A stretch of DNA of 64,000 bases, taken from Cucumis sativus. Its lineage: Eukaryota > Streptophyta > Magnoliopsida > Cucurbitales > Cucurbitaceae. Below the pieces are notes generated by a model. It searched no databases, was not told where the DNA came from, and saw nothing but the letters and a program-made list of their open reading frames with translations. Numbering within the stretch: the first letter of the stretch is position 1; every line of letters begins with the position of its first letter. The stretch lies in assembly GCF_000004075.3 (NCBI RefSeq), contig NC_026656.2:17184607-17248606 (forward strand), written 5' to 3'. Of the stretch, positions 29,501 through 30,863 are shown in pieces. The translations under genes and the position numbers were made by a program.

Positions 29501-29995
29501 TGGTTGAATTGGGCTGAAAAAAAAAAGGTTGTAAACAAGCTGCACAACGAAGTATAAGTATTAATTATAAATATATAACAAAAAAATTGGGAGTTTAGGT
29601 GCCATGTATTCATTCCCTCAAATCCAGTTGCCTCCTAAAGCAATAGAGACAGCAAAAAGAGCAGGAAAAGAAGCTGACGTCTTCTACTGTCTTAAGCTTT
29701 TGGAAGCCACTGGAATCTCCACCGTCCCAGGCTCAGGATTTGGACAGAAAGAAGGGTAATCTCTCTTATTTTAGACATCATTTTAATCGATCTCTGTTTT
29801 TCCTTCAAACTGATTGGTGGCAGTTGTTTTGGGGGCGAGAGGAATAGATGTTATATTCTTTTTGTTCTTTTTTTATCTTATTTTTGCAGGGTCTTCCATT
29901 TGCGAACAACCATATTACCGCCAGAGGAGGAGATGCCAGCGATCATGGCAAGTTTTAAAAAGTTCAATGATGAGTTCATGGAACAATATGCATAG
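26530..29995 (+). CDS. GGT: Glutamate:glyoxylate (alanine) aminotransferase, 13 exons, lacking the peroxisomal C-terminal tail
   Basis: PLP enzyme of fold type I. In leaves this family transaminates glyoxylate to glycine in photorespiration, normally in peroxisomes. Exons: 26530-26646, 26738-26803, 26913-27030, 27421-27502, 27635-27722, 27799-27957, 28306-28479, 28569-28700, 28886-28951, 29081-29145, 29293-29384, 29599-29755, 29890-29995; total 474 codons, 473 aa. Motifs: [50 protein letters not shown], the PLP lysine K291 in [17 protein letters not shown], and [10 protein letters not shown]. Family members as I recall them are about 481 aa and end E-D-H-R-G-Y-S-R-M, a PTS1 signal. Here the frame ends FMEQYA-TAG; one frame over, the next codons read E-E-H-R, as if a 5-nt insertion had cut off the tail. 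It may therefore be cytosolic. The SMIGGGLG stretch also differs from the usual SMTSGGLG. Possible counterpart of At1g70580/At1g23310. Confidence 0.94.
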
Positions 29996-30863
29996 AGGAA
30001 CATCGTCGGTAACTGTTTTTGCAAACCCATATCTCGTGGTTTCCTTCAATAAAATTTGCTCATCTATGTAATTTAAACTACTTAATTGGTGTGAGCCAAT
30101 GATAAGTTTTCTAGTGTGGAATCCAGGAACAAAAGTAACATTTAAGTACTACGTGTTGTTCAATTCACGAAATAAAGGGTGTGTCAAATAATTAGTAAGT
30201 TTTTTGTGAGACAATGGGACACACTATGTAATTGTTTTCAAGTCTATAAAGAAAAGTGGGAGTTTGTAAGTATGGTGAGAGAATATGTTCTTAAGGTGGT
30301 GAAAGAGGACCTAACAAGTTTGTTCATGAATTGATGAGATGAGAGAATAATAAAGTAGTGAAGTAGTAGGAATAAAAAGAGAAGTGACAGTTCGGAACTG
30401 GAATTATTGACGAGTAGGGAACACGTGACATCATCATCATTAATGCGTTAGCTGTTTGGATTCATGCATTCTAATTGAGACTCCCCCTTAAGTAACGTTG
30501 GCACCACCATATTCTCTCTCCTAGTAATAATAATCTGAGAGTGAGAGTGAGAGTGATATTTAAATTCAGTCTGCTTATGTCACGAGTTGCATGGAGTGAG
30601 TGGTTTCTGTGTTTGTATTGATTTTAAAGATCAGGAGTTTATCTATCTAGTGTGAGGGAATAGGGGACTCACAATTCAGAAATTGATATTCTATTCAATT
30701 ACACAACAGTACAACCAATGAATGCACACTCTTTTCGTTCACCCTCATTTATTAAACCCTTTGTTTCCACACCCTGATCCTCTTCTTAAGTTCCACATTC
30801 CTCCGGCTCCCTCCCTCCATTCATTTTTACTTGCTGCTTTCCAACTCTTTAATTTATTTCGTT
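29996..30863. other. Intergenic between the aminotransferase and the SMR gene
   Basis: 3' flank of the aminotransferase (AATAAA at about 30048-30053) and the promoter of the SIAMESE-related gene. A GAGAGTGAGAGTGAGAGTG run lies at about 30538-30556, followed by GATATTTAAATT. No gene is seen. Confidence 0.55.

Follow-up and report, generated by a model that had tools for sequence, protein, structure and literature searches.

A cucumber glutamate:glyoxylate aminotransferase gene that ends before the peroxisomal tail of its sister copy

A 64,000-nucleotide stretch of the cucumber genome (C2:17184607-17248606; hereafter the window) carries an intact gene for glutamate:glyoxylate aminotransferase (GGT) that stops just before the C-terminal peroxisomal targeting signal (PTS1) still encoded by a sister gene, and it shares this stop with a diverged partial duplicate elsewhere in the genome. 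The reading that we favour, with a probability of roughly 0.6, is that of a functional GGT paralogue with an old loss of PTS1, whose product would reside mainly in the cytosol unless it enters the peroxisome bound to a PTS1-bearing partner. The evidence comes from gene structure, from the paralogues and the duplicate, from coding constraint, and from a search for hidden targeting signals.

Gene structure and family

The earlier note on this DNA had described an intact gene of 13 exons and 473 codons without PTS1, and spliced alignment bears this out: all 12 introns have GT-AG borders, the frame is open over 473 codons, and a TAG follows at 29993-29995.

26530..29992, plus strand: GGT gene, 13 coding exons, 473 amino acids (spliced alignment)
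26530-26646, 26738-26803, 26913-27030, 27421-27502, 27635-27722, plus strand: GGT exons 1-5
27799-27957, 28306-28479, 28569-28700, 28886-28951, 29081-29145, plus strand: GGT exons 6-10
29293-29384, 29599-29755, 29890-29992, plus strand: GGT exons 11-13

The predicted protein is a class I/II aminotransferase, matching Pfam Aminotran_1_2 with 127.4 bits (cut-off 19.7; E 9.8e-37). Its NCBIfam matches, among those listed (25 of 58 families), all fall below the curated cut-offs, and a search of a plasmid collection gave zero matches, as expected for plant DNA. In the PDB its best relatives are 3tcm and 3ihj, both of them chains of alanine aminotransferase 2, which we take to be the barley and the human enzyme, respectively; the SKG stretch of the window protein, presumably the site of the PLP lysine, aligns with the corresponding stretches in both. 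The 3ihj chain matches through its own last residue, at the same terminal A. GGT in cucumber cotyledons was reportedly the subject of work by Noguchi and Fujiwara in 1982.

Downstream of the GGT gene, at 30864-31211 of the window, lies a single-exon reading frame of 115 amino acids, the product of which resembles the small SIAMESE-related CDK inhibitors of plants; the frame matches nothing in Pfam at 0.01, and the genome shows no further copy of it at E 0.001.

Paralogues in the genome

Searching the genome (G000; 226.6 Mb, 88 contigs) with the window protein revealed two further GGT genes, arranged in tandem on the minus strand of C5. The search scored the best candidates only, so the number of GGT copies is at least three. 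The earlier note had suggested looking for a second locus, and a second and a third are present, one of them with SRM.

C5 25530402 to 25525881 plus tail, minus strand: C5a GGT, 481 amino acids, ending EEYEDHRGYSRM, a canonical PTS1 (SRM)
G000:C5:25544102-25539694, minus strand: C5b GGT (L037, L003), 474 amino acids, running to 25539700 and then GCA TAG, ending EEYGA

The window protein is 87.5% identical to C5a and 87.3% identical to C5b. Less closely related are two genes on C3 and C7, which end FMEEFRD and FMNEYRD and which we take for alanine aminotransferases (AlaATs); exon matches of this AlaAT-like kind (four on C3 and four on C7) are 42-66% identical, and the other matches in the genome are weaker aminotransferases at 25-33% identity. 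The window gene is thus nearer to the SRM-bearing GGT than to the AlaAT-like genes, and glutamate:glyoxylate activity is predicted from this membership. Judged by alignment, the catalytic fold appears complete at its C-terminal end, because 3ihj and the two AlaAT-like genes end at the same point. As a possible sign of block duplication, a paralogue of the neighbouring gene was sought near the C5 pair; the search matched only the gene's own locus.

In C5b, the next frame reads GHSGYSRM-stop, and four consecutive G mark the point at which the original frame is lost. Errors are common at sites of this kind. The early stop of C5b may come from an assembly error, or it may be real, as a polymorphism or a mutation of recent date. 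An in-frame PTS1 is therefore present in one of the three GGT genes found in the assembly, C5a. A loss of peroxisomal targeting for all of the plant's GGT is not supported, as C5a still carries SRM.

We also asked whether selection has maintained GYSRM in C5b despite its being out of frame, and found the case weak: all 18 bases equal those of C5a, the 3' flanks agree at 155 of 178 positions, and the chance of such identity is 0.083. Because 18/18 barely exceeds the identity of the flanks, nothing was drawn from it.

Pepper GGAT2 ends SRM, according to the excerpt of PMC9125320, and Arabidopsis GGAT is given as peroxisomal in the portions available of PMC10575701 and PMC3351597. From the paralogues and pepper together, we infer that the ancestor of the window copy had an SRM tail.

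Fate of the tail

The C-terminus of the window protein aligns without gaps with that of C5a as far as the Y preceding the tail. It ends EQYA, and the C-terminal PTS1 of the SRM type expected of a peroxisomal GGT is missing.

29890..29995, plus strand: last coding exon with early stop, FMEQYA-stop, compared with FMEEYEDHRGYSRM-stop in C5a
29993..29995, plus strand: TAG stop removing the PTS1 tail, GCATAG also being present in a duplicate on C7
29995..30012, plus strand: next-frame reading E-E-H-R-R-stop, in which SRM is not reached
30048..30053, plus strand: AATAAA, a possible poly(A) signal by motif only, its first base 53 nt past the stop

The earlier note had seen E-E-H-R in the next frame and had suggested a 5-nt insertion, GCATA, that merely displaced an otherwise intact tail. 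The reading exists at 29995-30006, where the last G of TAG serves as its first base, but it closes one codon later (EEHRR*) without an SRM. In frame 0, the bases past the stop read RNIVGNCFCKPISRGFLQ-stop, such that in-frame readthrough would end SRGFLQ; the +1 frame that follows the coding part stays open for 26 codons, which is unremarkable by itself, and has ICSSM as its C-terminus. A GYSRM-like end is absent from all three frames downstream of the stop, and an intact but displaced tail is therefore not supported. A vestige of the DNA encoding GYSRM, sought in the 150 nt 3' of the stop, reached at best 10/18, a value attained by 78% of 2,000 shuffles.

Relative to C5a, the insertion model matches at 8/12, 11/18 and 14/30 nt past the junction, and a 5-nt deletion, which brings CATAG into register, matches at 7/8, 9/14 and 10/24 nt; random bases equalled the shortest of these stretches in 0.23% (insertion) and 0.04% (deletion) of 20,000 trials. 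MAFFT picks the insertion, as had been proposed, but the deletion aligns comparably, and the two would best be regarded as comparable alignments, both above chance and both fading further downstream. That the tail has decayed after either indel speaks for an old event.

A diverged duplicate that shares the stop

The end of exon 13 and its 3' flank have a second copy on C7, at a 94% match in a DNA search of the genome.

29924..30386, plus strand: 463-bp segment duplicated to G000:C7:708475-708949, the copy lying on the minus strand and spanning 475 bp (blastn)

Aligned by blastn, the two copies are identical in 428 of 480 columns, with 22 gap columns, and the C7 copy carries the identical TATGCATAG and the identical GCATAG. 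None of the 72 coding columns (stop included) differs, compared with 29 of the 386 noncoding ones (about 7.5%; JC 0.079). If the rate is assumed to lie between 1.5e-8 and 6.5e-9 per site per year, these 29/386 noncoding sites would place the duplication at 2.6 to 6.1 million years ago. The decayed bases past the stop are common to both copies; the tail had thus disappeared before the duplication, and the loss of PTS1 probably dates back millions of years.

The same comparison bears on whether the stop is real. An assembly or sequencing error at 29989-29995 might be suspected from the odd frame of C5b in the same stretch, itself possibly an assembly error. However, GCATAG recurs in a separate duplicate with a noncoding part diverged by 7.5%, and the 105 columns past the stop hold 10 differences between the two copies. 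The window stop is therefore no sequencing slip, and we consider an error here extremely improbable. The earlier note would have abandoned its case had the extra bases been lacking from RNA reads or other assemblies; within this genome, the C7 duplicate has the same bases.

The absence of coding differences has a chance of 0.0036 if both copies were neutral and of 0.064 if drift affected the C7 copy alone. Among 315 noncoding windows of 72 columns none is free of differences, yet in one noncoding stretch 56 consecutive columns are identical. We take this as mild evidence that the window exon may have stayed under selection after losing its PTS1. A recent local gene conversion of this part is also conceivable, because the copies show no difference in any of the 72 columns that lead up to the stop; the decayed bases that they share beyond it nevertheless place the loss of the tail before the duplication.

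As to its surroundings, the C7 copy begins 222 bp past the stop of an opposite-strand CAP-H2-like (condensin II) gene, whose protein, when spliced by eye, gives a hit at 4.9e-35 to the CAP-H2 C-terminal domain of condensin II. Looking by eye at the flanks of the copy, we noticed no mobile-element ends. Close to the duplicate (L038:3976-4450), three direct repeats of 120 nt lie at L038:4771-5145, with 83% and 69% identity to the first.

Coding constraint

Over 471 codons (NG86), dN, dS and dN/dS are 0.067, 1.7 and 0.040 between the window gene and C5a, and 0.071, 1.4 and 0.051 between the window gene and C5b (YN00 for the latter: 0.067, 1.7 and 0.038), with dS near saturation and the ratios mostly reflecting the time preceding the loss of PTS1. 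The tandem pair C5a/C5b is younger, with a dS of 0.45 (NG86) or 0.40 (YN00). Relative-rate tests, counting only sites at which both outgroups agree, gave 13 versus 9 and 12 versus 9 unique changes (chi2 0.73 and 0.43), meaning that the window branch is not accelerated; the first-exon columns of the outgroups add noise, because those exons are poorly fitted in the outgroup models. With 473 codons open, dN/dS at 0.04-0.05 and relative-rate chi2 below 1, the gene does not look like a pseudogene and is constrained overall.

These results weigh on a reading in which the loss was tolerated as C5a suffices, leaving a redundant gene that is open but drifting, with no special task in the cytosol. The PTS1-bearing C5a does cover the peroxisome, and organelle targeting changes more often at duplication nodes than at others (5.5% versus 2.2%, in the accessible part of PMC7086175). 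Such a relic would not be expected to keep a full-length open frame on an unaccelerated branch, nor all 72 coding columns unchanged since the C7 duplication, and we think it unlikely.

Targeting signals and splice forms

We took nine canonical plant PTS1 tripeptides and the PTS2 pattern from the portion seen of PMC7086175. The window protein contains no PTS2 under either the strict or a loosened pattern, and a mainly cytosolic location is predicted because neither PTS1 nor PTS2 is present.

A functional signal could nevertheless be restored in part of the protein by readthrough, ribosomal frameshifting or an alternative exon, devices with known precedents in the splicing of pumpkin hydroxypyruvate reductase and in fungal readthrough (PMC3798809, in excerpt). 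We simulated splice joins that run from a GT site in exon 13 to an AG site at most 3 kb further on, taking those with a stop within reach, and none of the 603 ends in any of the nine canonical tripeptides; SNI appears in six. Joins from the end of exon 12 (n = 179) yield SSM in seven, SNI in two and a canonical PTS1 in none. The earlier note's own counter-scenario, a spliced final exon restoring an SRM-like tail, thus finds no counterpart among the simulated forms. SSM and SNI are among the non-canonical PTS1s predicted in tomato (PMC9328179, as far as available), so a weak hidden signal is conceivable, and the ICSSM end of the +1 frame could add to it. Look-alikes of this kind are expected by chance, because the joins allow any GT and AG. 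The exon-12 joins, moreover, skip the last exon or shift its frame, in-frame readthrough ends SRGFLQ, and the SSM reads SSK in the C7 copy, which is itself not a gene. A hidden PTS1 is accordingly very unlikely in our estimation.

A different route into the peroxisome would be for the PTS1-less protein to dimerise with an SRM-bearing paralogue and be imported with it, in which case its location would hardly have changed. The identities of 87.5% and 87.3% to C5a and C5b are compatible with such pairing; import of oligomers, including oilseed isocitrate lyases piggybacked without a PTS1, is described in the part seen of PMC9328179, and oligomer import also in that of PMC3798809. Import of this kind would require both proteins in the same cells, and we regard it as the chief rival to a cytosolic location, possible but rather doubtful.

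Discussion

We favour a course of events in which a frame-shifting indel, situated where the catalytic fold gives way to the targeting tail, would have removed PTS1 long ago. The protein probably still folds into a working aminotransferase; it ends where the tail-less alanine aminotransferases end. Peroxisomal GGT would be supplied by C5a, and the window protein, if expressed, would be found mainly in the cytosol, where it may carry out glyoxylate transamination or use alanine and 2-oxoglutarate. The relocalised paralogue that the earlier note had named among its outcomes is thus the most likely one, with PTS1 absent here and SRM present in the sister C5a.

Compared with Arabidopsis GGAT1/GGAT2 and pepper GGAT2, the window protein has the class I/II aminotransferase core in common but lacks their C-terminal PTS1 tail. 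It resembles the cytosolic AlaAT1 type in its fold, as judged by sequence, in its end point and in having no PTS1, whereas by sequence it groups with the GGT copies, apart from the two AlaAT-like genes. On the literature as far as available (PMC3798809, PMC10575701), the closest precedent is the hydroxypyruvate reductase of pumpkin (HPR1/HPR2), likewise an enzyme of photorespiration, which has peroxisomal and cytosolic forms, the cytosolic one without the C-terminal signal. In pumpkin, one gene and alternative splicing give the two forms, whereas here there are separate genes and a fixed frame change. The accessible part of PMC7086175 likewise describes plant gene duplications after which one paralogue loses an organelle signal that its sister keeps; set against that broad trend, the window GGT is a single case followed base by base, and a segmental duplicate sets its minimum age.

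It is clear that the loss of PTS1 is a kind of change already known; what is special is the dated duplicate, together with a paralogue out of frame at the same spot. Searching the literature by titles and abstract starts, we found no description of the PTS1 loss in this gene, and the portions available of PMC6848643, PMC3576256, PMC11883228, PMC8268252, PMC11685375, PMC3743077 and PMC3633942 contain nothing on its tail. A more ambitious interpretation is that the lineage keeps a dedicated cytosolic GGT which, together with the cytosolic form of hydroxypyruvate reductase, belongs to a photorespiratory side-branch in the cytosol, and that two of its three GGT genes have left the peroxisome, each through its own frame change at one and the same point in the tail; we hold this to be improbable.

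GGT gives glycine in photorespiration, and its peroxisomal location is usually taken for granted. The finding is relevant to counting or editing the plant's GGT genes, because one of the three copies found has an in-frame PTS1 in the assembly. A crop that has long retained a cytosolic copy would, furthermore, offer a natural test of whether cytosolic transamination of glyoxylate leaked from peroxisomes is useful.
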